In this document: piece after piece, positions 6,920 through 52,454 of the stretch
Numbering within the stretch: position 1 is the stretch's first letter
How the letters are laid out: each line of letters starts with the position of its first letter
Assembly (NCBI GenBank): GCA_020284085.1
Contig: JACEVL010000083.1
Coordinates: 1,300,501-1,364,500 of the forward strand
Reading direction: 5' to 3'
DNA from: Aporrectodea caliginosa
Lineage: Eukaryota > Annelida > Clitellata > Crassiclitellata > Lumbricidae
Length of the DNA: 64,000 nucleotides
Notes under the pieces: generated by a model
What the model saw: only the letters and a program-made list of their open reading frames with translations
Database searches by the model: none
What the model was told of the DNA's origin: nothing
Program-made: the position numbers and the translations under genes

Positions 6920-6940
6920 ATGGCAGCTGCCGGAAACAGA
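6920..6940 (+). CDS. Gene A exon 1 (start codon)
   Basis: Seven codons, MAAAGNR, then a GTAAGA donor in phase 0. Copy C has the same exon as MAASGNR with the same donor. The shared peptide, start context and splice site are why this start was chosen. Confidence 0.65.
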
Positions 6941-9900
6941 GTAAGACATTTAATTTTGACATCGATTTGGCTAACTTGTGTACTGATTAAATGACTTTGG
7001 AATAAAACGACACATTCTGTTGATAGTCTAAACATTTGTCAAATTTAAAAAGTAAAAATTTACTTTTCAAATAAGAATATAATTATTCAACAGAATTCTA
7101 AAACACACACGCACACACATACACACTCACATGCACTCACATGCACGCACACACACGCACGCACGCACACGCCCTCAAGCACACGCACGCAAGCACACAC
7201 ACACAAGACCGTATTGTTTAAAACGTTGGCAAGTGAAATCTGTTAAATCGAAAAGCATCTGACCCTAAAATAGACAAAACGTCTCTATTACAGCATTACA
7301 ACCGAACGGATAAATTAGAACAACCTCTCGCATAATAAATCGCTTCAGTTAGACGACGAATCCAGCATGTGTTGTAGCCCTAACCAGTAATTTATCCCTA
7401 GATGCATGCAAGTGTTAGGCCTAGCCTATTGGCAAGAAGGGAATTCACAAAACGGTGATCAACTCAAATCTCTGGTTCTGAATGGTACATTTTAGATGGA
7501 TGAATTAATCAAGGACATCGAAGCCATGGGAGACGGAGATACCTGGACGTGGGATCAACGCAACAAATTCGAAGACAAATACAAGAAAACTTTCATGAAA
7601 ACATTAGGTGACCTGAAGTAAGTGAACTCTTTTCTTTGGACCATACGTTCTTAAGTGAAGACATCGTTTTAGGAGACAGTAGAATGATGTGTTTGCCTTC
7701 GAAGTGGCCCTATTGAAATTTTCAATTGCGATTACTATTAGAATAATGTACTTATTGCATGACTGTTTCTCACATCACAGCACTGACATTGCTAAGAAAG
7801 TGCTCTGCTGCAGATCCATTTATATCACTGCTGAGAGAAAACCATCTCTTACACATCTCGTAAAACCTGCACCTCTCAGATGAAATAGGCTACTAACCAA
7901 AACTTAAAATCATCAAAAGCCTCAGTACCGTAATGTTCATCTGATCCACAGGCATATCGTCATCTTACTGAAATAAATTGCCTACTTTAATTAGTTATTA
8001 GATGCAAAACTGAATGTCTTACGTGCACGAAGTCTCAAAATATCAGTGACACAATAATACCCGAATAGTTTTATCGCTTGCCTTGAAACTCGAAGTGATC
8101 GGGTTCGAATCTCACCTAAGACGGTTACCAACTGACTCTGTAGAGAACTCGATCAAGTCCTTTAAGCACTATTATTGCTCAGCCTCATCAACTGATGTTG
8201 TTGTTAGACGGAAGCGCCTAATGCAAATGAAATATTAATCAATCATTTATACCATAGACCGATCTGCAGAAGACTTGGGCCCTGGTAATTCTTTCCATTA
8301 TTTTTCTGTTGTAGCGACGCAGAAAAGGCAAAACTAGATGACGTTATTTTTGCTATGATTCGCAAAGGTGACAGTAATGTCATTGAAGCAATAGCAAACC
8401 CAATTTTCGACAAGAGAAAACTCATTGATTGGAAGGTCAGCCACCGCTTGTTTCAGATGTTACAAAATTATCAGCCATATAAACTTGTCTAGGGTCAGAA
8501 AAGAGTAGATCTAGGCTACGCTTATTAGTTCTACGCTTATTAGTTCTACGCTTATTAGGCTACGCTTATTAGTTCTACGCTTATTAGTTCTACGCTTATT
8601 AGTTCCACGCTGAGAAGTTCTACTCTTAAACGCACAATATAACGTCCTCTTCATTAAAGTACTATTAACCACATCAGCGACCAATTTTCTCAAGAATCTG
8701 CCTCTCAATCTCATGGACCTCGCCTTTGAAGTGGACCGTTCTTTAGGATGCGTGTAAGTAATGCTAGAGGCCTTTTGCAGTACATTGACTTCCCGCATTT
8801 AGTTATCTTCGATTGTAATTATAATCGCAAATTTATATAGCGCCAATTAAAGACAAACGTCTAAGAGACACTCCGACATGAAAACTCGAGACCATAATCG
8901 AAGCAGATGTTTTAAGGATTAAAGGGTTATCTGTGTAGGCTTACAACAGAACTTTACCTCAGTCCTCCAGACCTGTTCAAGGCGAACAGTCGTCATCAGT
9001 CGAACATGTTGAATGCCAAAGACCAAGGACATTCCCCACTTTTATTATTATTATTATATTGGTTTATTATTGGTACTCAAGACAGCTGACACACCGCAAC
9101 TGATTGCAACGAGTTCAACAGAATAATAAAGATTAAGTCTTTTGAGCACTATTGTTGCTCAGCGCCATCGATTGATGTTGTCGTTAGACGACAAAATATA
9201 AAACTAAGGTTCAAGAGAAAGATGGAACCATTATTAAATGTTACACTTTGTCAAAGACTCTCAAATTATTCGCTACAATTTCCGTTATTGGACACGAGGG
9301 ATATATAATTACTGTTCTTCTTAAAGGGTAGTACATCAGACAAGTGCAATTGCAACTATACTCTATACTATCACAAATATAAAGTAATTAGTTGAATAGC
9401 CTTATAACGCCACTCCAACACAGAAACTCCTCAGAGGCGCTATACCTATCTGACATGACACAATGATCAGAATCATAAAACCATAATCATGGCTTTCACT
9501 TGTGCTTAAGGAATAGAAGCAGACAGGAAGTTTGAGTGACTCCAAAGCAGGACTCGGTTGGGACCAGAACGCACCGGAACGGCGTTTCGGTTCCTTTTTG
9601 GCAGGAACATTTCGTTACATTGTTTTCATCCAGTATTTAACTAGATTAACATGGCGCCTGAAGCTGGCGTTTCGGTTCGTTTTTGCTAAGGACGGATCAC
9701 TGCTCCAAAGACAATGGCATGTCAATGTATTACAAAATCTGAAAATATTTTCATGTTTCAGATGTTATAATGAATGTCAGAGTGGGCTTGACGCTGTGCG
9801 CAGGGAACCAGCATCGTGTCTGACTTTGGTTGAACATTTTGGGCTTCGATGGCAGGTGCCATAGGTGTTGACATTATAATGGTTCATTGACCCTACAGAA

Positions 9901-12900
9901 ATGCTTAAATCAGTTTGGATAATTAGTTTTACTCCACATAAATTTTAACTTTAGCTACTCATTTTGCCATTTTATGCTTGCAAGCATTAAGAATATAACG
10001 CATTTCTAAGGGAAACTGCAAACACGAAAGTATGAATAATCTGAAGTTCTGTGTTGTAGAATAGACCGGAACTAATCATCAAAATGGTGGATACGCTGCT
10101 AAAAAGCACTAAAGACAAAGAAGAGTCAGCCAACAAACATCATTTCACAGCATTTTCTACTAAATTTATGGAAATGTTGAAGTAAGTATAAGCTACCTCA
10201 TAGTTTTTTCCCCTGTTTATAATCGATCTGGTTTTTACAAAGCATCGAAGTTTAAATACAGAACGTAGCAGTCGATGGCAATTTTATCTTTGAAGGAATT
10301 ACCAGTTCTTCGTTTATATGGTTGTAGTTTGAAGAACATTTATTTAACCATTGCAAAAATAGTTCAGTTTAAGACATGAACTACTTCTTTTGACAGCTAC
10401 ACGAAAATTCCCATATTAAGTGTATCGATACACACACATATACTCACAAACTGCCAAATTAGACTCAGGTGACATAAATTAATTGTTAAACCAAGTCGAT
10501 TTAAATGCAAGTGTAGCCGTGCAAAAAGTTAAAATCATTTGTATGTGTTTAGAAGCAATCAGATTCTCGGAAAACACGCCAAGAAGCTGTATGAAGTGGT
10601 ACGGACGGCATTCAAAACCGTCAAGTACACGGATGCACCGATACATAACACAGCTTTGCCTTTCATCACGCAGTTCCCTTGGGTGGTATGTCTCATGTTT
10701 CGAAGTCGCTTTCCAGCAATACAGTCATATACAATGCATCGGTCGATAGCACTTTAAATTAACCAGCAATAGGGTCTACATTTGATCAGAACTTGAACAG
10801 CGTCGTTAAAGGGTCCTACATGCAGTGGCGTCTGACCCCCCCCCCCAGAATGTGAGAACAAACCCCCACAGTGACTCTGGTCGATTACATTAATTTCGTA
10901 TTGCTCTACCTTGACGTATTTTGCTAATTTCACACGAATACATGTAGGCCTACCTTCTGAGATTGCATGTTGTATAGTTTACCTCGATATTTCATTGGAT
11001 ATTTGTAAAATTTTGTGAAACATTCAAGGTAAACTCAAATTAACAGGCTAATATACTAATTAAACAACGAAAAGAATTGCAGATTCTCGAATAATAAGAT
11101 AATCGTTTCTTTAAAAGGATAATCCGGATCTTGTCGTGGAGACTGTCAAGCTGGTAAAGGAAGCAGTTAAATTCAATCCTGACGTTTCAGAAAGTGCTTG
11201 GATCGGAACGAATATCGGAATCGTCTATCCCATGATGTTTCGAAGTCAGTCTGGGTAAGAAATTAGAAGCGCTAGATTCAGAAGAGAAGTTAGGCCCAAT
11301 AATTCAAATCATAGGCCATTTAATGTAGACTGTACATTTGCTTAAATTCCGCCTAAGGACAAATGAAGATTAGCACTGAATTGTTTCGGGATGACATCAC
11401 ATTTCTGTTAACGTATCCTTTCTATTAAAGAGCCTGGTATCGAGTTTCAAACGCGTTCACACACATGCACCTTCAGTGCTAGCCTACTTAATGAGTTAGT
11501 AGCCCATAATATGATCCGTGTGCTAGTACAACATGATCAGTGTGGTGTCTACTTTTCGATGCAGGAAGAACGTACACTTGCGAGCTCTGGATGACGCTGC
11601 CGAAGCATTCAACTTCTGTGCACAGCAAGATTTCCAGTGGTCGGAAGATCCGAGCAAAAAGACAATTTCCTACTGTTTACTTAAATCTACTATGGAAGAC
11701 TTTTTAGGCGCGGTAAGCAAGACGAACTGTTCACTTGAGTTATAACTGAAATTCCGATTATTGCATTAATGCATTCATGAGCTCATTTGTTCAAACGTTC
11801 GTTAAATCGTTGCTTCGTTCATTCATTGCTTCATCCATCATCCATGAGGTCAGTCAATCTGTCGATATCACTATATCACTATATATAAATATATATGTAT
11901 CAGGGTAGAATTCATGATTTTCACTCCAAGGAGCTAGGGTTGGCGGGTTGCAGCCTCATGAAAGCAATCAACAGGAAGTTTAATGAGGCATAATTAATAT
12001 GCTTCAGCTGGGACGTAAACCACAAGTCCCTTAATGCAATAGCGTTTTGTGGGGTCTACATCCCAAGCTTTTGGAATTCTTCCACAGCTACACCGGCGTC
12101 TCTCTTTAACGTACAACCGCAGGTCGTGAACTTGAGCGATAACTTAGCTGTCTTTACTTTGAGTAATAATTATGTGACTGTTATTTTCTACGCAATTTCT
12201 CGTCGGCACACAAGCTACGTTAACGAGACCAACTTATTCACCGGGGCTTAATCAAATGTGGTGCACGTGCACATGAGTCAAGATGCTTGGTCTATTTCGG
12301 TCCCAGGTCAAACTATAGGCCTATGTATACATCTATACGTGTTTGTGTCTGTGTGTGTCAGTATATATATTTACATATACTGTATATATATCCTCCGTCA
12401 GGCCAAGGCCAACGATGTAGTCCTCAACTTGTCGTCTCCAGAATTTACTGATCTATTTTGATACATATAGTTTGTTGTGTTTCTTGGTCGATTCTAGGGT
12501 GATAATCCTCTTCCGGCAGACTTGTGAAGCCGGTGATGGCTAGTATTCGTGATTACCTAAATGTGGAGATCAGGTTCCTTCCAGCACCTGCCTCCAACGT
12601 TGGCCATCTGTTTTAGGAATTCCCGAACAGCCTGATCACGTTGGAGATCAGACTGTGGTACTCCTGGCCCAGTTTCTTCAAGGAAAGCAAGGGCTGCTCG
12701 CCAGTATGGCAGAGTTTCAACCGGGCATTACGTTACTTGACGAAATCTTAACTAATGCAGGTAGGAGTTCATATAGTTATACAAATGTCAAGATGAGAAA
12801 CATTTTCGTTAGGCCTATTATATATGGTGTGTTGCGCACGTGAGTTAAATATAATATATATACGCGCCTTTTTAGTTACGTGTGTATATATAAATACATA

Positions 12901-15900
12901 CTCATTGCCCTATTCATACAATGTGAATACATGCATTGCCTTTGTTGCACATCACTGGCCTATTTGATAGATAGGACATTGTTTATTGTCACTCAAGTTG
13001 ATTAGAGATGTAGTAAGACTCCAACCTGTGAAGTTTCATCCTCTCTTACCGTGATTTCTGGAGATGACCAAGATGAGTCTTCCTCCAATTGGACGCCAAC
13101 TGTTCGCTACAAGTTGCCGAACATACGGATCTCGTTGGAGGCAGACTGTACTGCTGGAGCAGTTTCTCCAAGGAAAGCAAGCAACACTCGCGGTTATGTT
13201 CCAAAGTTCAAAATGTCTTATTTAATTTGCTTAACGAAATATAAATTAATCTATATTTCATATAGTAGAATTCATAAAATATAAAAATAGTCGCACCGGC
13301 GAACATTCTTATTATTAATTATTCCATGTAGTGTGTTGTGCACGTGCGTTAAATAATTACGTCTCTATAGCCTCGACATTCTCATTGCCTTTGTGACACG
13401 TCACTGTTGCCTAAATGCACTCTTTTAATATTGTTTTTTTTTGCAGCCAAGCTGGTCGAGATGTACAAGAGTCAACCTGAAAAGTTTCATCCTCTCTTAC
13501 CACGGTTTCTGGCGATGACCAATGAGGAGTCTTGGTACAAAATGCTTATTGTGCAGCTGTTCACTGAAGTTGCCAAAAAAGCCCCAGAGGCAAGTTGTTC
13601 ATCAGATTTTCGTACATCAAAGCATTTCATGGTTTACTTTCTAAAAAAGAATACTATTATATTGAAAACATGATTCAATCATGCTGGGACAACGCTGAGA
13701 TTGTAGCTTAGATATGTTCTGTAGGATCTCCTGTCATTGATTGGTCATTCCTTGCACCTCATCCAATGCTGATGTAGCTGGCGTCTCGCAGGTATTCATA
13801 GTAACTAATTACCTGATCCGTGCGTGTAGCCTATAAATCTTAATCGTAGCCTACTGCATCTGCTTCATAATTTAGAACTTTCAAATTATTAATAATGATA
13901 GTTAGTTGCTAAGTTTTCGATAATCCTGCACCCTTAAAATTGGATGGCATTGTTGTTACTTGGTTCCCCTGCATTTGGTCCTTCTCGTCAACAAAATGTA
14001 ATTAGTAATGGAAAACTAACCCTTTTCAAAAATGTCATCGTATTGGCAACATTTGTGTTATATCACTGAGAACTATATTCATTGAAGGGAGGTGTAAGAA
14101 TAGCCAATAAAGGGTTAATTTTACCTTTCTAAAGCGAGTGATTAACTTGTCTCACCCTGGCTCTCAAAAAAGATTCTCATTACAATGAGTACAAGAAACT
14201 TCATCATTGGACAAATTAATCCTATAATAAAGTTGTGTAAATATTTTCTAACCACCAGAAACTGCCGAAAGAGACGATTCCAACGATGGTTGGACTGCTG
14301 AAAGACAACACGGCTGTTTACATGGCTGTCATGTTTTTGGACGCCGTCGCAGTTAAACAGCCGAAGTCAATCATTCCTTACGACAAACAGATCATTGAAG
14401 GAATGGGTTTCACGGAAAATGCCGAAGCGATGTTCGCAGGAGTCCTGACTAAACTATGCATTGACCAGGTCAGGAATTTATATTTAAAAAATAAGCACAT
14501 ATATTACATTATATGTGTAATAAGTTGACATAGATAAGCACTAATTTTGAGCAATAAATTTTCATTATTTTTTGATTATTTTAATGTATACGGGCACCAT
14601 TATTAATAGTTTTTCTAATTATTTAAATATTTTGTCACCGTTAGATTTTAAAATATTCATGCTCTCCCTATTTGTTCCATGAAGGAGCATTTTGCTTCGC
14701 CATGGAAATTTGGTTTTAGGGGGTCAGAGCTTTGTGACGTCATTTTTCAGGGGGTGTTACTTTTTGTGACGAAGTGTGACGAGGGGAGGGGTTAAAAATC
14801 GGCCAAAATTGCGTGACGTCATTTATGGACGGCCCCTATTCCGCTAGAGACAGCTTCAGAACATTTCAGCTAACCTCAACGCGTCCAATTCGGTTCTATC
14901 AGGAAACTATCTTTCTATGCCTTTAAGATATACTGACAACCTCAAATAAAGTCACAGACATAAAGGCCTACAATATGACACTAATTTGTTCTTCATCACA
15001 GGCACATCAGCGCAAATATCTGAAGGCCATTGCAGAGAGAGTGGAGAAAAATAACAACGGAGCACAGCAGATGGGCTTAATATACAATATGCGAACAATC
15101 GGTGTCAATTGTCCGGCCATTCTCGGAGAACACAGGAAACTCCTCGAAACGCTTCGCAATCGACCTGACCTCAAAGAAACGTGCCAGGCGACCATAGATG
15201 TCATCGAAGGCAGAAGGTGAGTTCTACTTCCGGTACCGTTAATAGGTTTTTGAAGGATGCTATGCATATTTGTTTGGATCGTTAGCTAGCCAAAACTGTC
15301 GGCTTGTTCCATGTCTTTAATACGTGCGTTGTACAGAGCATCAACCAGACATTACGTTACCAGAATAGTACTCTGTGACGAATCATTGCTGGATAAATGT
15401 AAACAATATGGCCAAAAGTTGATATAGACAAACATCCATTCCATGCACAAAAGTTCCATACACTTCCACAAAAAATTCCAATATGTTAGAAACTGATTCA
15501 GAGTCTGTGTTGACCTAGACATATAATAGTCATCCGATTGCAGATCAAATACGAAGAAATTGTTCACAAAGAAGTGAAATGTAAACAAAGACTTCATAAT
15601 TACCGGTAATATCAACCTATCCATTACAGAACTTACTCAAGCCCAAGGTAAAAAGCTTTTTCAATGGGTTGCCTTCAGATTATGTATGTTTTGAGGGGTT
15701 ATAAAAAAAGCATGGAATACATACTTACTACTTAGGCCCTACATATACAATTATTAAGCAGTTTGTGTATAGTGTGAACGCCATAAGAATTAATCATTAA
15801 TCATACATTCACGACTTCAAATTATTGTTTTCGTTGCAGTCTGCAGAACGTCGCTGGGGAAATCTCGGAACAGCGCAAAGATATAAATCAACTGGACACG

Positions 15901-18900
15901 CGAGTTACAACGACCGAAGACAACGTTGGCAATCTATCGAAGGACGTCAGTAAAAATAAAAAGGATATCAAACTGGTAAAAGGGGATGTCGCAAAACAAG
16001 GCCAAAAGCTGGACGAACTTAAAACAACTGTTGACGAAACTGTGGAAAAAGTAGAAGTTATAGACCACAAGGTGAGTTTGTTTCAAATCTTAATTATGAC
16101 AATCTTACTTAGGCTATATTCTAATACTTAGGCCTAACGCATATTTTAACGTATAATAGCCTACATTTGCTATCACCATTTAAGCACCTAAAGTGTCTTC
16201 TCTGATAGCAAGATTTAGCTTTGCTCCGGCTAATCAAGCTAAAACAGGTAAAGTAAATTCCACTCGAGTATTGCTCCAATGCATAATTGATTGTAATTAA
16301 ACCAACGTTCACAAATAACTTCCGTATATTTAAATCGATTCTCAATTTCTTGATTTTCTTTTAAATGCACAGACTCTGAGCCATGCGCCTGCGTGGTCGG
16401 TGGACGTGGCGAAGATGTTGAATCCGTCGGCAGATCACGACTGGCGTCTGTTGGCGAGTAGACTCGGATACTCGACTGACGACATTCGAAACTGGGCGAC
16501 TCAACCGAATCCGTGTCTGAGTATGTTCGACGAATGGTTTGCGACGCACAAAACCAGAGAGGCGACTTACGGAATCCTTAAGACTCTCGTCGAAATGGAT
16601 CGCACGGACGCTTCCGTCATCGTCGACAAAGCACTCAAGTCAGTCGGTTAGTGACAACTATTCGCTTAAAGCTATAATGACCAACATCTGCTTACTTACG
16701 TTTTTGTGTCCTTTTGTATTTACTTTTCCTTCAGCTAAGTTTACTCTGTCTACAATAATATGCTTTTTCCGGTTTGCTTTGTGAAACATATTACCATGTT
16801 ATCCAATTAACGCTTAAGCAGCATGTTCATTAAAAGTGAAAAGTGGTAAATACTAGTAATAACTAATTAGCTTCATTTGACTCTGAATATTCGCCAACTT
16901 TAGATGTTAAATGCTTTATTGAACACAGAACACGTCATAGAAGACGACGAGGAGGAACCAGCTCAACCTCCTCCCGTCTTCCTCAGTTACCAATGGGCGC
17001 ATCAACCGGAAGTGAAGCTGTTGAAGCGACACCTGGGGATGGCTGGCTATTCGTCTTGGATGGACATTGGTCAGATGGGAGGCGGAGACAAACTCTTCGC
17101 TAAGATTGACAGCGGAATCCGCGCCGCTAAAGTGATCGTCTGCTGCGTCACTGAACGATACGCAGAGTCACCAAACTGTAACAGAGAGGTAAACGTTGCA
17201 ATCTATTCTCTATAATACTATATCTATTCGAACATATTATTTAGGTTTCGTAGTCGCCAAACAATAGAGAGGTAAAAACGTAACAGTCTAATCTTTTGCA
17301 ATACCTTTTAGCACATTGAATTATTAGGTTTCTGAGGCTAAATATTGATCGCTCTGGTTATTAATTGTTTATTTTCCAACTACGTTCATATTGAATCATT
17401 TATGAACATTTGCCTTTGTCGCTTTTGTACGTCTTCACCAGCGAGAAATTCAGAATGTGAAAGAAGATTTATGGATCTAAAACCGTCATCTGTTGCCTGC
17501 AACAAAAACTGAGCAACTGAATATAAGTTTTTCTTTTAATACAGTGCTAGAATGTGCCTAAGTTTTCTCATTGTCAACATTAATAACGTACTACTTTCAC
17601 TCCAGGTAAATCTGGCGACGACACTGGGTAAACCGATAATTCCTCTGCTGATGGAAAAGATGTCTTGGCCTCCACCTGGCTCCATGGGCCCCATCTTCGG
17701 AGAATACATATTCGTCCGATTCTTTCAAAGGCCAGAGGAGAAAACGGGAGATGATCGTTACTGGCCTTCAGATAAATTTACAGAACTACTTATGCAACTG
17801 AGATACAGCTTCGCTCCAGACAATTCTCTAATAGTCAAAGGTAATTTCACTCCTGAATTAAATTTGCACTTATTACTCTTTTTTCTAAATAAATAGATCA
17901 GATTTTTATATTTTGCATTTGTAAATGCATTGATTTGTTTAAACGAAATATTTTACGATCTTTTACTTTTATTCAGAATCTCCATACAAAAACTGGTGGC
18001 AACCGCCAGAAGAAGTGATTGTGATAAAGCCAAAAGCAAAGACGCCTGCTGCCCTAACGTCCGTTGAGAGACCCGACGCAAAGGTTATTTATTATTGCTT
18101 GGCCTAGTGAAAGACCCGCCGCCAATATTATAATTTCGTTTATTCTGCAAACTGTTAGGACATAAAAGTTTTAGTGCGTCAAAAATATACCAAGCTATAT
18201 CAGAATAATTCTTTATTGTTAATAACTTTCTTTCAATTTTGTTGAGAATATTTTGATCTTCAAGTAACACTTGCTGTCATATGGAACTGTTGCGCTGCGT
18301 CAGTGTGTCAACGTTACAAAGATTGACTGGAGTATTTTTTCATCAAGTAGCGTAACTATGGATACACGTCGGCATGATGTAAGGTTGGCCTCAATCCTGA
18401 AAATAGGGACTCTCTCAGAACCGTATTGCCCTGGAGGGAGACATTTGAGTAATATACAGTTGGACCTAAGATGAAGTTAAGCCATCTTGTATACATCAAT
18501 ACAAAGTTGAATATTAATGTTCTGATGTTGAATAATGAAGCAAGTGATGAGCCTGTCTCTAATTGAAACATACAAATATAAATGTCGCACAAAGAATATG
18601 CATGATAAACACAAACAATGATGAGTTACAAAATCGAAACAAAATAAAGGTGCAATGTAAGCAGCTTAATATGATATGACCATATGTAGTCGTCGGGTTA
18701 GAGTCGAATTTACTGAGACGGTATCTGTACACCCACAAGTGGTCCAATAAATGTGACTGATTATCATGGGCCTTAAAGGTTTTCATGTTTATGTTTTTGT
18801 AGCAATCGCCGGCGAGTCCCGAGATCTTCATATCGTACCAGTGGGATAAACAACCGCAGATCAAGGCCCTCTACCGACGTCTTTCGCAACTGGGATACAC

Positions 18901-20423
18901 CTGTTGGCTGGATATCATGCAGATGGGAGGAGGAGACTCGCTCTATGACAAGATAGACAGAGGCATACGAGGATGTAAAATCATCATTTCCTGCGTCACA
19001 TCCAAATACGCGCTGTCTGCCAACTGCAGGTCTGCATACATGCTACTAACACCACCTTGAAATTCACATCCTGTCAAAAAGAAAGGGTTACTAACTTACA
19101 ATATAATATCAAACTTTGCCCTCCCTGGGCTGAAGAAGGTAAAATTGCGATTTTAGAAATATTATATGAATACGAATCGTATGGGCTACATTATTTTGTG
19201 CGTTTCATGGTGCATTGTTTTTGTACAACAATAAATACTTTAGGAAATGTAATCATTAGATCAGCCATGCAAATGTACTTAAAAGTAAATGCAGAATTCT
19301 GAAGTTTCTCATAATAATATTGAAGCCGCTTGAGCCCATTGATCTAAGATTCTAAGTGGTTCGCTTGTTGTTTTGTGTAGGCGGGAAGTGAGCCTGGCTG
19401 ATGCCATAAAGAAGCCAATTATTCCGCTGCTGTTGGAGAAGTCGCCGTGGCCACCAGAGGGTCCAATGGGAATGGTCTTCACTCAGCTGCTTTACATCGA
19501 CTTCTGTAACCCAAATGAAGCCATTCAGAAAGAGTGGAAGTGTCCGCAGTTTGACGAGTTGATCAAAAGAATTGAAAAAGGTTTACCGGTAAGTTTTGCT
19601 TCAAAATGGTTTTGGACTGTATGATAACACATTAGCATAATGACAATTTTTTTAAGGATACTGTTTATCTATTAAAAGAACTGTAATATGCGTGTATTGT
19701 TATTGAAAATGTGGAGGGTGTAAATGGATAGTTTGCACCAATTTTTATAGCTGAAATGTTATTTTCTGTTCTCATAATTTTATGGTTATATTATGATCGA
19801 ATGTTTTCACATATTGGGTCCTATTTACTTATTTTAAGCTAAGCGTTTCATTTGAACCAACGTCTTTAAGAAAATGGACAGCAAGAAAGCATCATCATTA
19901 TATAAAACAAAGCTCGAAATATTTATTGGAAATGATGCCAATTATTGGGGAAAAGCCTTTCTGTTTTGTCATCGTAATCGTGAAAACAGATAAAATTCTG
20001 TTTTAGCCAAATTCTGGAACCACACCAGCGACCAGTTCAACTGCAAGACGACAATCAGATGCGAAGCCTGAAACACCAGCGAAGAATCCGGCTAAACCTG
20101 CAGCACCGGTGAAGACAGATTCCACGCAAGGAACGCCAGCTAAAAGCCAGACTAGCTCAGGAACAGCTGGGCCACCGGGAAAGAATCCGCAAAAGCCAGG
20201 AACGCTTGGAACGCCAGCCAAGACTTCTGAAAAGCCAAGAACGTCTGCACAGACTGAAGCCAAACCAGGAACGGAGAAAAAGCCAGGTATGGAAAATGGT
20301 GGATTCATCTCAGAAACAAGTAATGATGTAAATGCAAATTTATCTTCAGACCAAGAACTCCGTAGAGAGAGAAGTAATACATCTAGAAAGTCCGAGGAAT
20401 CTGCTTGTTGCAGTATCTGTTAA
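6920..20423 (+). CDS. Gene A: ARM-like / coiled coil / Death domain / TIR / TIR protein with CAAX box
   Basis: Multi-exon gene placed by splice consensus and comparison with copy C. Exons: 6920-6940, 7496-7617, 8315-8435, 10060-10181, 10556-10685, 11118-11254, 11565-11712, a damaged exon 8 ending at 12703, 13447-13589, 14259-14468, 15002-15216, 15840-16071, 16373-16646, 16929-17188, 17606-17840, 17977-18083, 18803-19029, 19381-19588, 20007-20423. Phases agree throughout except at exon 8. With a short exon 8 (12574-12703) the product would be 1,152 residues: helical solenoid to about 500, coiled coil 500-577, Death domain 580-668, TIR1 about 685-820, TIR2 about 875-1010, then a low-complexity tail. 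Death plus TIR is the MyD88 combination, while an ARM-type solenoid plus TIR recalls SARM1; this layout is neither. Likely an intracellular innate-immune adaptor or TIR-type NADase (inference). If the exon 8 lesion is real, A may be a pseudogene or may use an altered exon. Confidence 0.8.
7095..7205. repeat. CA/CACG microsatellite
   Basis: ACACAC/GCACGC run in intron 1 of gene A. Confidence 0.85.
7496..8435 (+). CDS. Gene A exons 2-3, extra N-terminal helical unit
   Basis: Exon 2 (7496-7617, 122 nt, donor GTAAGT) and exon 3 (8315-8435, donor GTCAGC) encode a charged, predicted helical segment that begins [14 protein letters not shown] and ends KRKLIDWK. The pair is 243 nt with phase 0 on both sides, so it can be included or skipped without changing frame. 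Exon 4 also has exactly 122 nt and the same end phase, which suggests exons 2-3 and 4-5 come from an exon-pair duplication. Copy C has no equivalent between its exon 1 and 35,177. Confidence 0.6.
8060..8225 (+). repeat. tRNA-derived SINE-like repeat
   Basis: Contains a B-box-like GGGTTCGAATCTC and a 3' module (GCACTATTATTGCTCAGCCT ... TGTTGTTAGACG) that recurs at 9,120-9,195. It lies in intron 2 of gene A just upstream of exon 3. Confidence 0.5.
8512..8640. repeat. 12-base minisatellite TTAGTTCTACGC
   Basis: About eight head-to-tail copies of TTAGTTCTACGCTTA-type units with small variants. On the minus strand they read as Lys/Arg/Thr-Asn repeats, but there is no supporting gene. It lies in intron 3 of gene A. 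Confidence 0.85.
9120..9195 (+). repeat. SINE-like 3' module
   Basis: Second copy of the 'gcactattgttgctcagcgc ... gttgtcgttagacg' module seen at 8,158-8,214. The rest of intron 3 (8,436-10,059) has no supportable exon. Confidence 0.5.
10060..11712 (+). CDS. Gene A exons 4-7, ARM-like solenoid N-terminal part
   Basis: Exons 10060-10181, 10556-10685, 11118-11254 and 11565-11712. Alternating amphipathic helices are visible (for example [15 protein letters not shown], then [20 protein letters not shown], then [18 protein letters not shown]). Copy C has every exon with the same phase; 122, 137 and 148 nt are identical, and exon 5 is 133 rather than 130 nt. Exon 5 of A appears to use an AGAAG acceptor three bases beyond the AG used in C. 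The region diverges between copies much more than the Death/TIR exons do. No catalytic motif is seen, so a protein-interaction or autoinhibitory role is an inference. Confidence 0.7.
12498..12703 (+). pseudogene. Gene A exon 8, degenerate
   Basis: Homologous to intact exon 8 of copy C (40716-40908), but the 5' part carries a net 5-base excess before CTTGTGAAG and more length changes in the middle, so the phase-0 reading hits a stop. The 3' part is intact in the proper frame ([18 protein letters not shown], phase-1 donor GTATGG). An alternative acceptor CAG at 12571-12573 would give a 130-nt open exon of the right phase, but its polypyrimidine tract is poor. Either A is a pseudogene here or a shortened exon is used. 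Confidence 0.6.
13005..13206 (+). pseudogene. Permuted relic of exons 9 and 8
   Basis: The first part (to about 13,070) matches the start of exon 9 (GAAGTTTCATCCTCTCTTAC). The remainder matches the 3' half of exon 8 (GGAGCAGTTTCTCCAAGGAA). The exon 9 piece precedes the exon 8 piece, opposite to gene order, and the frame is broken. This fits a scar of unequal recombination between internal duplicates of this region. Confidence 0.65.
13447..15216 (+). CDS. Gene A exons 9-11, ARM-like solenoid resembling melted/VEPH1
   Basis: Exons 13447-13589, 14259-14468 and 15002-15216. Together with exon 8 they read LQGKQGLLA, then [20 protein letters not shown], then [20 protein letters not shown], then [16 protein letters not shown]. 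The series 'LQG...LL...(V/L)..MY...QP......LP.F/L' recalls the helical-repeat N-terminus of melted/VEPH1 proteins; this comes from recollection of the family and is not a computed match. There is no PH domain here. Exon 9 ends at a GC donor (AG|GCAAGT), conserved in copy C. Confidence 0.75.
14640..14840. repeat. Transposon-like fragment in intron 10
   Basis: Contains repeated GTGACGTCA blocks, GGGGG runs and TTATGGACGGCCCC, a composition typical of DNA-transposon ends. It is absent from the matching intron of copy C. The family is not identified. Confidence 0.35.
15840..16071 (+). CDS. Gene A exon 12, coiled-coil linker
   Basis: Highly charged, with hydrophobic residues at heptad-like spacing ([20 protein letters not shown] ... 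[20 protein letters not shown]). This strongly suggests a parallel coiled coil of about 75 residues between the solenoid and the Death domain. Such a segment would favour oligomerisation and bring TIR domains together (inference). Phase 2 in, phase 0 out; donor GTGAGT. The counterpart in C ends with a GC donor. Confidence 0.8.
16373..16646 (+). CDS. Gene A exon 13, Death domain
   Basis: A single 91-codon exon encodes the whole domain. Hallmarks are [20 protein letters not shown] (helices 2-3, with the conserved DW and LA..LGY), then [20 protein letters not shown] (helices 4-5), then the terminal [13 protein letters not shown] helix. The pattern fits MyD88/UNC5-type Death domains that form homotypic assemblies. 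The exon differs from copy C at only three bases of 274 by manual comparison. Donor GTTAGT, phase 1. Confidence 0.88.
16929..17840 (+). CDS. Gene A exons 14-15, first TIR domain
   Basis: Exons 16929-17188 and 17606-17840. After an acidic [12 protein letters not shown] linker come box 1 (PPVFLSYQW), the BB-loop region ([15 protein letters not shown]), a [13 protein letters not shown] strand, SPNCNRE, then [20 protein letters not shown]. The Glu of CNRE falls where SARM1-type NADase TIRs carry the catalytic Glu, so enzymatic activity is possible. The intron splits the domain directly after that Glu, a position shared by TIR2 within one codon and phase. Confidence 0.9.
17977..18083 (+). CDS. Gene A exon 16, inter-TIR linker
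   Basis: Encodes [20 protein letters not shown] and a Pro/Ala/Lys-rich stretch joining the two TIR domains. Phase 1 in, phase 0 out, donor GTTATT. Because it ends in phase 0, it can splice to either TIR2 exon 17 (18,803) or the duplicate at 26,058. Confidence 0.8.
18803..19588 (+). CDS. Gene A exons 17-18, second TIR domain
   Basis: Exons 18803-19029 and 19381-19588. Box 1 [16 protein letters not shown]-loop [15 protein letters not shown], then [20 protein letters not shown] across the splice junction, then [20 protein letters not shown] and a terminal helix [12 protein letters not shown]. The putative catalytic Glu (RRE) is kept. Two tandem TIR domains probably arose by internal duplication: both are split at nearly the same place and share the QMGGGD motif. 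Confidence 0.9.
20007..20423 (+). CDS. Gene A exon 19, low-complexity tail with C-terminal CAAX box
   Basis: About 138 residues rich in Pro, Thr, Gly, Ser, Ala and Lys, with repeated (P)GT(L/P)GTPAK-like units, ending in [11 protein letters not shown] and TAA. The last four residues, CSIC, fit a CAAX prenylation box, and the adjacent Cys could be palmitoylated. This predicts membrane attachment of a TIR protein. Acceptor TTTTAG, phase 0. Confidence 0.85.
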   Translation, partial: PNSGTTPATSSTARRQSDAKPETPAKNPAKPAAPVKTDSTQGTPAKSQTSSGTAGPPGKNPQKPGTLGTPAKTSEKPRTSAQTEAKPGTEKKPGMENGGFISETSNDVNANLSSDQELRRERSNTSRKSEESACCSIC

Positions 20424-26057: not shown

Positions 26058-27747
26058 CAATCTGCGTCCAGTCCTGAAATCTTCATATCGTACCAGTGGG
26101 ATAAACAGCCGCAGATCAAGGCCCTCTACCGACGTCTTTCGCAACTCGGATACACCTGTTGGCTGGATATCATGCAGATGGGAGGAGGAGACTCACTATA
26201 TGACAAGATAGACAGAGGCATACGAGGATGTAAAGTCATCATTTCCTGCGTCACATCCAAATACGCGCTATCCGCCAACTGCAGGTCTGCACGTATGCTA
26301 GTAATACCACGTCCTGACAAAATAGAAAGGGTTGCTAACAATATATATATATACATATACCGTATATATAATCGTAATCATAATCGTAATCGAGAATTTA
26401 TATAGCGCCACTCAAAAACAGAGGAGCCTCCGACCCGGGCCGGTGTCCTCACTGATAAACAGAGAGGATTTCAGGCGCTGACGGAACTGGGTTAAAGAAA
26501 TAGAGAAAGGACAGTCCTGAGGGACTGAGGTAACTGGTCCCAGCTATAGTATTGGGACCAACAATAGCGAAACTTCTAGATTGGATGTAGAAGTGCGCAC
26601 CCGCAGGACAACCAAGTTACCACGGCCGAGGATCGAATGCAGGAACGTCTGGGCAGTGACGATGCTGCTCTTATGCCCTAAGATAGTGAGGAGCAGAGCC
26701 ATCAAGACAGTTTCGCATGAGGGGTGAAACCTTGAATTGGATACGCTTGCGGATGGGGAGCCAGTGACGGGAGTCACGGATAAAAGAGGAGATATGGTCA
26801 AACTTTGCAATGCCCCCTATGAGGCGGGCAGCAGCGTTTAGGATGACCTGAAGCTTAGATGTATTCGTAGAGTAGAGACCAATGTGACACCGCGTCTCAA
26901 TGCATATTTTTTGTTAGGCCTAAGCGTTCTAGAAGTTGCTTGCTACCGACTACGCTATATAAATCGTCGTAATTACAATTACAATTACAATTATATAATT
27001 TATATATACCTGCGTTTATCCACCACGAATGTAGAACGCACAAAATCAAAGAATTAAATGCAGACGACAGATGCAAACTGGCATATATGAGATGATCACT
27101 TCTGTGATCTAAATATGGAAATTGAGTTGTTGAATATAAATATTACTTGTTTTAAAACTGTCGCAATTTCTGCACTGATGAAAGGAAAACTTTTTTTGAG
27201 GCATGTGATGGGAGTTTGAATCGGTGTAGCCTAATTATCGTTCCGTTGTTAGCATATTTTTGTGACACTGCGGCCCAATGTTACCCACAATTGTCGATTA
27301 ACTCACTTGGCATGCGCTAAAAATTACAGCGTAGACGCTAGTGCCATCTTATACACTATTGTGTACGTTTGATGCTGCATTGTTTTTGTTACAATTACTT
27401 TCGGAAATTGAATTGATTAGATCAACCATATAAATGTACTTTACGTGTAAAGTAAATGCATATTTCTGAAGTTTTCGAACACCACACTAAAACCGCTTGA
27501 GTCCATTGATCTAAGTGGTTCGCCGGTTGTCTTCTCTAGGAAGGAGGTGAGCCTGGCTGATGCCATCAAGAAGCCAATTATTCCACTGCTGTTGGAGAAG
27601 TCGTCGTGGCCACCAGAGGGTCCAATGGGAATGGTCTTCACTCAGCTGCTTTACATCGACTTCTGTAAACCAAATGAAAACATTCAGAAAGAGTGGAAGT
27701 GTCCGCAGTTCGTCGAGTTGATCAAACGAATTGATAAAGGTTTAGCG
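26058..27747 (+). CDS. Copy B exons 17-18, TIR domain
   Basis: A complete TIR domain: [29 protein letters not shown], then SANCRKEV across the junction, then [20 protein letters not shown], then [12 protein letters not shown]. The putative catalytic Glu is kept (RKE instead of RRE). Both exons have the same lengths (227 and 208 nt) and phases as in gene A. Confidence 0.8.
26368..26995. repeat. Composite dispersed repeat in copy B intron 17
   Basis: Flanked by TAATCGTAATCATAATCG on the left and an AATTAC-repeat on the right, as if two tailed elements met in opposite orientation. Copy C has only the left portion: 26,645-27,105 is absent there (junction near 48,365). Shared flanks on both sides allow the indel to be placed precisely. 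Confidence 0.55.
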
Positions 27748-28158
27748 GTAGGTGATGCCTCGAAAATATCTTTCGACTAAATGATACCACAACACTGTGA
27801 TGACGAATTTTTAAGGATGTTCTTATTCTGTATAAAAGGAATGTAATTTGCAAGTATTTTCATTGAATATATAAAAGGTTGAAATGGTTTGTTCACTAAT
27901 TTTTATTGTAGAAATGCTATTTTCTTTTCTGTTCTTATAATTTTATGGATACTTAATCACTTATGCCCATGGTGGCCTATTTACTTATTTGAAGCTAGCT
28001 GATTCACTTGAGCCAATGACTTTGAGGAATTAGGCAGAAAGCATCATATATGAGGCGGAGCTCTAAATATTGACTGAAAATGATTTCAATTATTGAGTAG
28101 AACAAAGCCTTTTTGGTTTGTTGTCGTAATCGTGCAAACATGTGAAAATCTGTTGTAG

Positions 28159-28557
28159 CCAAATTCTCAAACCACACCAACGACCAGTTCAACAAGACGA
28201 CAGTCAGATGTGAAGACTGAAGCACCAGCGAGGAATCCGGCTAAACCTGCAGCACCGCTAAGGAATGGTTCCCAGCAAGGAACACCAGCTAGAAACCCCA
28301 CTAGCTCAGGAACATCTGGGCCACCTGGAAAGAATCCTAAAAGGCCAGGAACGCTTGGAACACCAGCCAAGACTTCTGAAAAGCCAAGAACGTCAGCACC
28401 GACTGGAGCCAAACCAGGAACATCTGCAATGCCGGTGTCTATAAAAGGAACACCTGCACAGACAGAGAAAAAGCCAGGTAAGGAAAATGGCGAATTCACC
28501 TCACAAACAAGTAATGACGTAAATGCAAATTTATCCTCAGACAAAGAACTCTTATAG
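28159..28557 (+). CDS. Copy B exon 19, tail without CAAX box
   Basis: Same Pro/Thr/Gly/Lys-rich tail as gene A, with some repeat-unit changes, ending SSDKELL and TAG. Compared with A, one base is missing just after CTC, which creates the stop. In the other frame the remnant still reads SEESACWSIC, so the CAAX cysteine codon TGC has also become TGG. The product would be soluble. Confidence 0.75.
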   Translation, partial: PNSQTTPTTSSTRRQSDVKTEAPARNPAKPAAPLRNGSQQGTPARNPTSSGTSGPPGKNPKRPGTLGTPAKTSEKPRTSAPTGAKPGTSAMPVSIKGTPAQTEKKPGKENGEFTSQTSNDVNANLSSDKELL

Positions 28558-30700
28558 AAAGAAATAATACGTCTAGACAGTCCGAGGAATCCGCCTGTTG
28601 GTCCATTTGTTAATTTGTTTTTGCTTATTATATTCGAGGTAAGTAAATGTAGCGGAACAGATGTGCACCTAATTCTTACTATATTAATCAGCAAAGCCTA
28701 ATAAGTTTGAGTTCAAGAAGCTCTTCATGAATTAGGTTAAGAAAGGGCTTAAATTATGAATTATGTTCGTAGTATTTCAAAAGTATTTCTTAAAACTGCA
28801 ATGTTTCAAAATAAATTTATGTTTATTCATGATTTCAGATAAATGAAATTGGATTGCTATCAAATTAAATATATTTTACGGCACACATTCATAGTAAGGA
28901 AGTAACACTTAAGAAATGAGAGACTTGATCGCAGAATAGCATATAAATATTATATAACAAATGTTTATCTTTAATTATTTTTTTAATGAGTTGCTTTATG
29001 ATAGAAAAGCTAGGATAAAATGAAAATGTTGAAACCTGCAGGATTAGGATAATCCTAGCCATTGGACTGGTAATTTATTTACATTGTTATATTGACTTGT
29101 TATGGTTTCGGTTGATTAAGCTTTGTATAAAGTGGTTCGGTATTTTGTTGTTGTATAGAATAGATTTTGATGTAACGAACTGCTTGTTGTTTGCGTGTGC
29201 TTTTTTAGGACTCAGAGTTGTTACCCACAAGTAGATGGAGTCATTTGGTGGTATCGATACAGAGCATCATGACCAATTAGATATCCTTTGGTTTGATATT
29301 TATTTTGACACCACAGTCTGTCTGCATATGTCTGTTTATTTATATAATCTGTGAGCTTATTGCCTGTCACTTTCGGGCTTTGTTTGTCTTGGTTAAAACT
29401 TGTTTTCACAAATGAAGATTTATTAGTTTGATAATTTCTACCGAGTAGTGTTTTTGCGTTTTAAATTATTCGTGATTCTTGATTTTTCAATAAAATTACT
29501 AACTTTGTGCTGCAATAGATATCTTTGGTACCGAGACATGGTATATCATCACCTGCCTGTTTCTCACTAGCGAATTTAAATCCCGGTTTTAGCAAAGTTC
29601 TTCTAAATGCATGTATATGAAGTTCATATTAGTCAAATAACGTTGAATGTTGAAGCTCTTGATTTCATTTAGCGCATGGGAAGCGAAGAGTGAGTTTCAT
29701 CGGAGAAATGTTTACTGAGAATGCGTTTACAATGAAACGAATTTCTAGTGGAATTCCATTCTGTTTAGGCTACTGAACATAATTTGTGAGGCTTCAAATA
29801 GTTTTTTATATATTCTTATTTTATAATCGTAAAATATTTTATAACGCCACTCAAAAGAAATTCATTTGACTCCCTGAGCTTTTTAAAGTTCATAAGTAGG
29901 GTCCATAGTAATAAAATATAGTTTGCAGGTGGTGAGATGGCTGAATGCTAACGTCTACGGTCTATCTCTCGCCTTCACATCCGAGATTCAATTCGTGTTC
30001 GTTTTGAGAAAATGACAGCAAACAATTGCTTACCGATTTTAAAATTGATTATATATCTTTTATCAGAAGGGTTCTTCAACTCAGGATCACACCTCTAAAC
30101 TAATATTGATGCAACATTTAATACGTTTTGTTCCGAAGAAATGGTATACGCCAAGTAATGCTTTCTTCTGTCTCCAAAGCATTCCATGCATAAAAAGTGT
30201 TTCAATACCATGTTTAAGAACTGTAGTAATTTTAATACCATTTTAAAACCGATATGCTTATTAAACGTCACGATATCTTGAGTTTTATATGAATGCTTGC
30301 TTCTCATTGTTTCTCCAACCGGATTTTACAATTGTCCTACGCTTTTTGAAGCACCATTCATTTTACAGAAAGCTGAGCTTTATAACCGGTTTTATGCAGG
30401 ACTTTGATGACTTTCAAGCCTCTGTGAAATTTTATATGCAGCTTCTTAGTAGTTACTAATATTTTATTTATATGATATTGTTATTTTTTTGATCGCTGTG
30501 TTATGGTATAAAATAACTGCTTATGCTAAACAAATTTAGGCACTTCTATTCTTGTACGAGTGCAACAAATTAAATGGTAAATATCTTCTACCATTTTATT
30601 GCTTGCGACTTCTAACACTGCCCCAAATGAATGACCTATGAAAACGATGTTAACTGTTCCGTGAACGAATTATAAATTAACAAGAAAACCTATTACGAAT
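28558..30700 (+). other. 3' flank of copy B, homologous to the gene A 3' flank
   Basis: Aligns in order with 20,424-22,650, with many substitutions and indels. No gene is seen. A weak tRNA-like segment near 29,935-30,000 is too degenerate to call. AATAAA occurs near 28,811. Confidence 0.6.
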
Positions 30701-34800: not shown

Positions 34801-37800
34801 ATGGCAGCTTCCGGCAATAGAGTAAGAAATCTAATCTCGATATCGATTTAGCTAACTTACTTACTAACTGAAGGGCAATGCTATTATAACTTTGGAATTA
34901 AGTTCGCATTTTCGCATTAACAAAAATGATTCGGAATATGAAATAATTACACATCTTGTTTCTGATATTTTTACACAGTATCGTTGAATAGGAGCCTTGG
35001 TTAATAGGTTTACGGACGTTGATGCTGTACAAGTTCATTGACACTACAGAACTTCTTGAATTATATTATCAGCTTTCTCCTTCTAAACAGTGTCTGTTTG
35101 CAGCCAGTGGAATAGCAAGCAACTGTAATGCAAACACAAAGGCATATATAAATAAATATGACATTCTATGTCGTAGAATCGGTCGGACTTAATTGTCAAA
35201 ATGGTGGATAGACTTAAAGAAACCGCTGCAGAAATGGACGAAGACGAACCTAGTTGTTGCTACGACCCATTTGCACATAAATTTCTGGAAACGCTGAAGT
35301 AAGTAGACTTTCTGATTTTCTTCGAATAGAGTTCATTCCATTCATGAATGAAATTAATTGTAGCATCCAAACCAGAATAAACAACGGAGGCGGAAGTCGA
35401 TGGCAATTTTGTCTTTGGAGGTCATACACGGTCCTCTTCTGTGTAGCTTTATATTTTGAAAAATAGTTACTTTAATCTTTCGGAAAGTGGTCGATATTCA
35501 TTATCGAATAAGCGTGAACTAAGTATATAAGAAAGCAAATAAGCATGACTAAGTGAGTAAGTAAGTATATTGTTTATTAACCAACTTTGCTTACAGGCAG
35601 CTAATAAATACAGTTGAAAGGTAGCCTATTATAACTTCGAAACAACATCTTTTGAGAATTAGGTCTACAAAAAGTGCAATTAAATGTCTTGATAACAAAA
35701 ACGTGCATAGGTCTACAAATATTCAATTTTGATCTTAATAATGACAAATTCTGTAGTTTTTAAACCAAGTTAATTATATATAGTTCTACATGCAAACTTT
35801 ACATGTTTCCGATTTTAGAGAATATGAGATGCTTGGAAAAGACGGCAAGAAGCTCTTTGAAATAATAGAAACGTCATTCAAAAACGTCAAACGTATCGAT
35901 GCAGCTATACATCGAGTAGCTTCGGACTTGATTTTCAAGTTTCCTTGGCGGGTAGGCTTCATGATTCTAACAGTCATTCCAGTAATATAACTACCGTCAT
36001 ACACAATGCATTGGTCAAGGGTCGATAACACTTTAAATTAACCAGCAACACATAATTATGATCAGAACTCGAAATGCGCTAGAAAAGGTTAATCAGTCAG
36101 TACTTTATTACGCCCGAAGGCAGAAACAAATCAGACGTCACAACAAACATGCACAAATCTGTACAAACATAAAGTAAAACACACAGACTGCGAAAATGTT
36201 CGTAAAGGTCATTTATGCAACTAAATTGTTTGGGTCTAATCTAGGCCTTTTGATTGCTTGGATGGTGTGGTTTATAGGCTGATATTTTCCAGAAAATTTA
36301 CATACTTGTTCTCTAGTCAAACTCTCTTATTTACGCGTAAGAGTGTATTGTTTTAATTCTACTATAAGGCAGCAATTTAAACACACTTGTTAATGCACGG
36401 GAATAATGTTGTTTGACAGTCAAAAGGTAAATTGAAAGGCTTGTTTTGAGAATTATTTGAAGCTACCAACTGATAGAATTTTAGCAACGACTGCTAAACG
36501 CAGCAGCTCAACCGAACATTTGAGTGTGGCCATGAATGACTTCTGTTTTGAAGTTATCATAATGCCCCAGATATAAATTTTATGTCGATTTATGTTGCTC
36601 GATAGTGTAGTGGTTACCGTCCTGGACTGTCAGTCGAGAGGTCTGGAGTTCAAATCCTCGCCAGGGCAGAAATAATGAATACACTAACCGCACATTGTCG
36701 GTCGGAAGAGGACTGGCCACACTCAAATGCCGAGGCTAAGAAGTTTCATACACATGGCTGCCTCACGGCTAGCTGAAGGACTGCACTTCTCTCCTTCTTC
36801 AGATTCAGCCGCAGGCGAAAAACCATGAGATAGAGATTGTCGCTCGAAATCCATTATTATTATTATTAGGCTATTATTATTATTACTAGATGTTTGCCCG
36901 TCCTAAGACGGTGAGTTTAGGTGCTCGGGCGGGCCACTTGAAATCAGCGCTCCCCTCTTTTTTCCACATCCCTTTCCTTTGCTCTGCTTTTCCCCTCCCA
37001 CTTCCCACCCCCTTTCCCCTGCCTTCTCCAATTCCCGTCCCATAACCTTCCATTCCTGTTTTCCCTCCCATCCTAACCCTATCTCTACCCCTCTTCCATA
37101 CTGCCCTTCCTTTTCCCTCTTAATCACCTTCTTTTCTTCTCTACTCACACTCCCCTGCCCTGCCCTTCCCACCCTCTCCCCAATCCCCTCCACCTCTCAC
37201 TCCCCTTCCGTCCCTCCCTCCTTCTCTCCTTATTTCCCTCCAACTCCCTATCCCGCTCTCCATCTCTCCCTCCCTCCCTCCAACCCTCCGTCCATGAACG
37301 CCTGTATAATGCATGTAGCTATGCTCCGTCCGTCCGTTGTTGAGAAATATATTGTGTTGCTTTGACGTTTTTCTTTGTGACGTCACAGCGTAACTCCACG
37401 CACGCATCGACCGGGCAGGCACGCAGTCACCCACGCAGGGACAGAGATTTCTGTGCTCAAGATTTAGCACTACATAAGACAATTCTCAGTTGCTTTGTTT
37501 GTGAGACTATCGGAAAGTGCAATAGGCCTAAACGCTCCAATCTTTGTGAAGCTTTCAAAATAAGCGCTAATTTTTAATTTAGCCTACCAATAAAACGACG
37601 ATGAGGTTTGCAAAAATTTCTGACAAAAGGGTTTTTGTTTCGTTGAAAGGATCATCCGGATTTGGTCTTGGAGACTGTGAAGCTGATAAAGGTTGCAGTT
37701 AAATCCAATCCTGACGTTTCAGAAGAACATCGGTTCGCAGAGATGTCAAGTTCCGCGTATGAACTCATGTTTCAAGATCAGCGTGCGTAAGTAATTATGA

Positions 37801-37908
37801 ATGTAAGACTCAGAAAAACCGTATAATAAATTATATTATAAGACAATGTTGGCATGGCAATTCATTTGTTTCACCACTTCCACAATCTTTACTGCCTATA
37901 GGGCCTAC

Positions 37909-37955
<47 letters not shown>

Positions 37956-38991: not shown

Positions 38992-39055
<64 letters not shown>

Positions 39056-52416: not shown

Positions 52417-52454
52417 CGACCCAGATAGTTATTAAGAAAATACACAGTCAAAAA

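Follow-up and report, generated by a model that had tools for sequence, protein, structure and literature searches.

The window analyzed here is a 64,000-nucleotide stretch of the genome of the annelid Aporrectodea caliginosa (contig JACEVL010000083.1, positions 1,300,501 to 1,364,500 of the forward strand). At 6920-20423 on its plus strand lies the gene under study (the focal copy), in which 19 exons were found to splice into a single open frame of 1153 residues, with an ATG at 6920 and a TAA that ends at 20423. The introns have a GT donor in 17 of 18 cases and a GC donor in the remaining one (after exon 9), and all 18 have an AG acceptor. The encoded order is solenoid (exons 2 to 11; compared below with that of the melted/VEPH1 proteins), coiled coil, Death domain, first TIR domain (TIR1), linker, second TIR domain (TIR2), and low-complexity tail with CSIC at its end. 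Further copies were identified within the window (copy 2 and a partial copy 3) and farther upstream on the contig, at a distance of about 490 kb (copy 4; C82, about 806-819 kb). The exons of the focal copy and the two copies downstream of it are as follows:

6920-6940, plus strand: exon 1, start codon, encoding MAAAGNR; copy 2 counterpart at 34801-34821
7496-7617 and 8315-8435, plus strand: exons 2 and 3, start of the solenoid; missing in copy 2, matched in copy 4
10060-10181, 10553-10685, and 11118-11254, plus strand: exons 4 to 6, solenoid; a phase 2 intron follows exon 6
11565-11712, plus strand: exon 7, solenoid; the first exon whose introns on both sides agree with melted (phase 2 upstream, phase 0 downstream)
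12498-12760, plus strand: exon 8, damaged; the gene model takes 12631-12760
13447-13589, 14259-14468, and 15002-15216, plus strand: exons 9 to 11, remainder of the melted-like solenoid; introns of phase 0, 0, and 2
15840-16071, plus strand: exon 12, coiled coil
16373-16646, plus strand: exon 13, Death domain
16929-17188 and 17606-17840, plus strand: exons 14 and 15, TIR1, with Glu within NCNREV
17977-18083, plus strand: exon 16, inter-TIR linker
18803-19029 and 19381-19588, plus strand: exons 17 and 18, TIR2, with Glu within NCRREV
20007-20423, plus strand: exon 19, low-complexity Pro/Lys/Thr-rich tail, ending in ACCSIC (CAAX-type) and the stop
34801-47999, plus strand: copy 2, 15 exons, start codon through first TIR2 exon, with 886 residues in open frame
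26058-28610, plus strand: copy 3, partial, reduced to the TIR2 exons plus a tail whose frame is broken

The original prediction, made from the letters of this DNA, had assigned the coiled coil, the Death domain, the two TIR domains, and the CSIC-ended tail to separate exons; this was confirmed by the single frame of 19 exons and by Pfam, which matched the spliced focal protein to Death (37.0 bits, cut-off 22.6) and to TIR_2 (152.5 bits over two stretches, cut-off 28). Residues 1 to 497 gave zero Pfam matches at E ≤ 0.5, and their nature was assigned from profile and exon-structure comparison only. The prediction had also joined the N-terminal exons and the Death/TIR exons into one gene, and this was borne out, as frame and phase run continuously in both the focal copy and copy 2 and the relatives of the gene in many other species, which keep the same domain order, are annotated as single proteins. 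The Death exon meets TIR1 in phase at 16646/16929, and the identical junction is used by copy 2, which argues for one predicted transcript.

Among 7991 candidates scored in a protein search with the focal protein, 210 matched at E ≤ 0.001, and Pfam Death and TIR_2 were present in all 120 of the matches listed (the best 120 of the 210). The best, a Helobdella protein (E 1.6e-258), was 41% identical across 93% of the query. The named matches among these 120 were found in molluscs, annelids, a nemertean, echinoderms, hemichordates, and amphioxus. Querying with an amphioxus member instead gave 218 matches, the best 120 of which covered the same groups and included the Strongylocentrotus purpuratus "MyD88-like protein L1." No vertebrate, arthropod, or cnidarian member was seen among the named matches listed (120 of 210 and 120 of 218, with about 8000 candidates scored), and no absence is claimed. 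In the passages available of a 2022 Aplysia survey, proteins with Death-like, TIR, and Armadillo-type folds were counted as MyD88-like (PMC9334734), and two proteins of that survey are also among the listed matches of the focal protein. Passages of an oyster survey likewise report MyD88-like genes with the Death-TIR combination, plus an ARM-TIR class (PMC4346834). The proposal that the domain combination is new was thus not supported, since relatives of the same plan stand in the databases and some already appear in print under the MyD88-like label, their Armadillo-type fold included. We regard the window gene as very likely a further member of a known, uncharacterized, and widespread invertebrate family. 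Within the open-access literature searched, no report was found of the kinship of this family with melted or of its conserved CAAX end: no paper was found that joins TIR domain, death domain, and VEPH1, and among those that join CAAX, TIR domain, and death domain none was on the family by title. The work from which the name "MyD88-like protein L1" derives did not turn up in that literature and may describe part of these findings.

The original prediction had likened the N-terminal half to melted/VEPH1, and this likeness was upheld. By BLASTP, one sea-urchin member matched VEPH1 only marginally (33.9 bits, E 5e-5 as a single comparison, 17% identity). When 34 family members were aligned by hhalign with 14 VEPH1 sequences, the probability was 99.1 (E 1.3e-18) over 317 columns, with family positions 215-538 placed on VEPH1 52-370. 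A hidden Markov model (HMM) of the family solenoid scored all 120 VEPH1 sequences at 86.1-130.2 bits; among 540 decoys (120 reversed VEPH1 sequences, 300 shuffled sequences, and 120 reversed family members), none exceeded 11.4 bits. As a natural background, the best armadillo/HEAT (ARM/HEAT) chain of the PDB with the whole-protein family profile was AP-3 delta, at 33.6 bits among 177,635 distinct sequences. Solenoid HMMs built from 32 lophotrochozoan members alone and from 20 deuterostome members alone scored VEPH1 at 72.8-107.0 and 102.4-142.8 bits, respectively. In the reverse direction, the VEPH1 HMM reached E < 1e-3 with 25 of the 122 sequences of the family, the best at 67.9 bits (best of 486 decoys, 9.4 bits), and copy 2 was matched at 38.0 bits (E 5e-9). 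The separate melted gene of the A. caliginosa genome, an independent sequence and hence a second observation, scored 120.1 bits with the family solenoid HMM. Predicted models of two relatives have an armadillo-type solenoid fold. The structural comparison of the models (VIA-align) did not have SARM1 ARM or melted among the matches listed, which excludes nothing; sequence comparison with the PDB yielded no melted structure, and the VEPH1 HMM run against it at E ≤ 10 gave 19 matches, all to PH domains or small heat-shock proteins and none to an ARM/HEAT chain.

Intron positions provided a further line of evidence. The melted gene of this genome lies at C129:3757020-3768366, where six matches correspond to VEPH1 residues 1-231 and 674-828 (the PH region), and six of its exons were read for the comparison. 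On the columns of the solenoid HMM, the melted introns fall at 241, 291, 354, 404, 475, and 546 and those of copy 2 at 243, 291, 355, 404, 475, and 547, with phases of 2, 0, 1, 0, 0, and 2 in both genes. The introns of the focal copy agree (243, 291, 404, 475, and 547) except around the damaged exon 8. When splice pairs were scored without regard to the family, over all frame-keeping pairs, the first five melted introns were recovered unchanged. Four introns were counted as firm: the third melted intron (phase 1) was set aside because its donor is weak and a phase-0 alternative exists, and the sixth because its donor was picked by eye among several GTs. Among 200,000 random five-intron sets, none matched all four firm introns (within 2 columns and in phase) and 8 matched at least three. 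Together, the sequence profiles and the shared introns show that the family solenoid and that of melted/VEPH1 share common ancestry.

The coiled coil that follows the solenoid was modeled in two relatives as a single long helix, partly at low confidence. The family profile has coiled-coil matches in the PDB that include proteins which we take to be trimers, and RhxxhE, presumably a trimer motif of coiled coils, was found in 63 of 140 members (61 of them at one position), compared with 104 of 2800 segments after shuffling and 2 of 140 after reversal. These 140 comprise both window copies and 138 of 145 members, with 5 of the 145 dropped as unplaceable. The motif gives a hint that the coiled coil may be trimeric. 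Among solved structures, the Death domain was best matched by p75NTR (E 2.2e-5), with MyD88 at E 0.35; the label "MyD88-like" would thus describe a domain pair rather than clear descent.

Both TIR domains carry the Glu of an NCxxE box in 118 of 119 proteins, a count drawn from 121 proteins (the 120 listed and that of the window) after 2 of the 121 with one TIR start by pattern were dropped; the exception is a Capitella prediction with an apparently mispredicted C-terminus. Against the PDB, TIR1 was nearest to SARM1 (E 6.1e-5), with its Glu aligned on that of the SARM1 HKE, and one of the listed SARM1 entries is titled with E642A, presumably the catalytic mutant. TIR2 was nearest to the bacterial TIR 7uwg (E 5.8e-6), followed by AbTIR, which is named an NAD(+) hydrolase. 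On a tree, 27 TIR1 and 27 TIR2 sequences fell into two separate sets, with a support of 1.0 for the TIR1 clade (the tree was rerooted, and the support printed at the TIR2 node is 0.053); this separation indicates that the TIR pair predates the protostome-deuterostome split. NCBIfam returned only sub-cut-off matches to bacterial TIR defense families, and the 44.8-52 bits of Retron_TIR_antiphage in 4 of 4 relatives (cut-off 600) denote TIR likeness only. Cleavage of NAD(+) as an output of at least one TIR is, on balance, the likelier outcome. Both keeping Glu at the catalytic position, the paired TIR1 and TIR2 domains of the family are candidate NAD-cleaving animal enzymes, as yet unexplored. 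Across the genome as a whole, TIR (PF01582) was matched 57 times, with many matches clustered on few contigs (C337, C414, C140, C404, and C837).

The C-terminal tail was compared in 118 of the same 121 proteins, namely those with two TIR starts and a full tail. A Cys stands at position -4 in 106 of the 118, while the counts at -1, -2, -3, -5, -6, -7, and -8 are 1, 0, 6, 8, 0, 0, and 0, and Cys -4 recurs in 20 of 25 further members. The reading of CSIC as a CAAX box is supported by this conservation. The last residue of the family tails is mostly L or I, which favors geranylgeranylation, whereas the CSIC of the window gene would favor farnesylation. A CAAX end conserved this deeply predicts that the family members are lipid-anchored adaptors.

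Comparison of the copies revealed an uneven pattern of similarity. The Death exons of the focal copy and copy 2 (16373-16646 and 45128-45401) are identical at 271 of 274 positions and the TIR exons are 92-97% identical, as opposed to 58-87% for solenoid exons 4 to 11 and 60-83% for the first 100 nt of introns. With the Death/TIR exons more alike than the solenoid exons and introns, the 3' half of the two copies looks like a region under gene conversion or under selection/strong constraint. Exon 8 of copy 2 (40716-40908, 193 nt) is open. Copy 2 lacks exons 2 and 3 and the 3' end, and no second TIR2 exon or tail for it was found downstream within the window (to 64000). Just downstream of its last exon, a 1280-codon open reading frame on the minus strand (48586-52428) has an integrase core, an integrase zinc-binding domain, and a weak aspartyl-protease match, and by its domains would be a long terminal repeat (LTR)-type retroelement. 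A minisatellite (43216-43635, 33 bp × 12.8 copies, 90% matches) lies within an intron of copy 2. GC donors occur at 13589 and 41318 (after exon 9 in both copies) and at 44847 (after the coiled-coil exon of copy 2). In the assembly of 1.10 Gb and 4544 contigs, single-exon matches to the gene were also found on contigs C1185 and C200.

The closest known relatives in plan are Aplysia LOC101850562 and LOC101855561 and the S. purpuratus MyD88-like protein L1, which have the same order over most of their length, CAAX-type tail included; the window differs in having its copies in tandem, with exon 8 damaged in one of them. Neither melted nor a second TIR nor a CAAX box is mentioned in the available passages of the Aplysia survey. 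With melted/VEPH1 the family shares a homologous N-terminal armadillo-type region (VEPH1 about 52-370) together with intron positions and phases, and both may have a membrane-binding element at the C-terminus, which would be the PH domain in melted/VEPH1 and the CAAX end in this family. Unlike VEPH1, which has no Death or TIR domain, neither copy has a PH family among its Pfam matches at E ≤ 0.5. SARM1 resembles the family in having an armadillo solenoid and a TIR with Glu at the catalytic position, yet it has tandem SAM domains between ARM and TIR, whereas no SAM family was matched here at that threshold, and it lacks the second TIR, the Death domain, and the CAAX tail. According to the passages available, a Death domain and a TIR in a single chain are the hallmark of MyD88 (PMC7075850), and the family shares this pairing; it differs in its two TIR_2-type TIRs, the solenoid and coiled coil ahead of the Death domain, the CAAX tail, and a Death domain nearer to that of p75NTR. 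Membership in MyD88 was rejected on the presence of two TIRs and a further tail in place of Death plus a single C-terminal TIR, and membership in SARM1 on the lack of SAM domains. The original claim that the gene joins features of MyD88, SARM1, and melted thus stood in part: the solenoid is kin to that of melted, while SAM and PH domains are missing and, among solved structures, p75NTR rather than MyD88 is the nearer match of the Death domain.

Taken as a whole, the family probably consists of cytosolic TIR adaptors built from a melted-type armadillo solenoid, a coiled coil, a Death domain, two TIRs, and a CAAX tail, most likely acting as a prenylated, oligomerizing TIR scaffold. In the mechanism that we propose, (i) the CAAX cysteine would be prenylated and hold the protein at a membrane; (ii) the solenoid would bind a partner or ligand and control the rest, as a sensor or brake; (iii) the coiled coil and Death domain would multimerize the protein; and (iv) this clustering would unite the paired TIRs, which may then recruit other TIR proteins or cleave NAD(+) as an innate-immunity signal. 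All of these steps holding together is a more tentative proposition, one that falls somewhat short of probable.

Several observations weigh against this reading. Exon 8 of the focal copy, when read from its normal acceptor at 12498, contains several stops, and the frame of 1153 residues depends on an acceptor at 12631 that keeps the frame but looks cryptic; the focal copy may thus be decaying, or make a protein without part of one repeat, and given this damage may not make protein at all. With the VEPH1 HMM the focal copy scored 11.8 bits (E 0.43, not significant), and in the family at large that HMM reached E < 1e-3 for only 25 of the 122 members. The 120 VEPH1 sequences are almost all mammalian and amount to about one observation. 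With the lophotrochozoan HMM, the first three introns shift by 1-4 columns (the next two coincide). The RhxxhE motif is present in neither window copy, the CAAX-type end is missing in 12 of the 118 tails, and the tryptophan of WxxxE, which we take to be the SARM1 TIR motif, is without a counterpart in NCNREV/NCRREV.

The damage to exon 8 is also the core of the view that the focal copy is a decaying pseudogene and its paralogues the working genes, which we consider a serious possibility without thinking it the likelier case. The stops from the normal acceptor, with copy 2 open at the same exon, speak for decay, and copies 2 and 3 are incomplete as well, which suggests that the cluster is turning over; on the other hand, each of the other 18 exons is open, their splice sites are good, and the frame-keeping acceptor bypasses the damage. 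Two further readings are considered very improbable. An ATG at 16904, just ahead of TIR1, is plausible as a start and would suit two or more adjacent genes misread as one; however, frame and phase are continuous in both copies, and single annotated chains of other phyla hold the whole order. A two-gene reading with TIR1 beginning at this ATG was rejected, since the Death exon ends in a phase-1 donor for which 16929 is the only fitting acceptor, in copy 2 likewise. The melted likeness could instead reflect a general resemblance among armadillo/HEAT solenoids, repeats which often match by chance and of which AP-3 delta reached 33.6 bits with the family profile, yet VEPH1 stands at 86-130 bits, its own profile matches no solved ARM/HEAT chain, and the intron positions agree with those of melted.

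As to function, the family could be a plain MyD88-type scaffold, whose TIRs only bind TIR proteins, whose Death domain recruits kinases, and whose Glu is structural, with no enzyme activity. Members are filed as MyD88-like in the available passages of the Aplysia survey (PMC9334734), one bears the name MyD88-like protein L1, and Death and TIR in one chain are the MyD88 hallmark. Against this, solved structures place the Death domain far nearer to p75NTR (E 2.2e-5) than to MyD88 (E 0.35), TIR1 has SARM1 as its best match, and a Glu kept in both TIRs of 118 of 119 proteins is not required of a scaffold. The missing tryptophan of WxxxE would fit a scaffold, and overall we hold this explanation to be possible, if not the probable one. 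A SARM1-like metabolic sensor, in which the solenoid binds NAD(+) or nicotinamide mononucleotide (NMN) and locks the TIRs until loss of NAD(+) frees them to degrade NAD(+) and the cell dies, seems unlikely. An armadillo-type solenoid plus an NADase-like TIR would suit such a sensor, and the top three Foldseek matches are to SARM1 or to TIR-1, its homologue in worms, but these matches fit poorly overall (TM-scores of 0.11-0.25, root-mean-square deviation above 31) and thus reflect shared domain types. Furthermore, SAM domains are lacking, the solenoid is kin to that of melted, and the sequence matches to SARM1 are confined to the TIR, with none to the ARM.

The kinship of the solenoids bears on melted itself. 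In the passages available of a review, VEPH1/melted is described as acting on growth (TOR, FoxO), Hippo, and TGF-beta signaling, and VEPH1 as without a paralog in any species (PMC6734325). The present family may perhaps be that missing paralog, a suggestion offered tentatively: a melted-type solenoid gene would have gained a Death domain, the TIR pair, and a prenylation signal ahead of the protostome-deuterostome split, and would persist in many invertebrates as an immune NADase or scaffold that is anchored to a membrane and controlled by its melted-type solenoid. The interest lies in this relation at the level of the family, of which the window gene is one more member. Melted gains a relative, and a developmental scaffold could thereby be linked to innate-immune machinery; if the proposed origin is true, melted would have an ancient partner gene, the two forming a pair, and the melted solenoid would merit study as a regulator of oligomerization and not only as a docking site.

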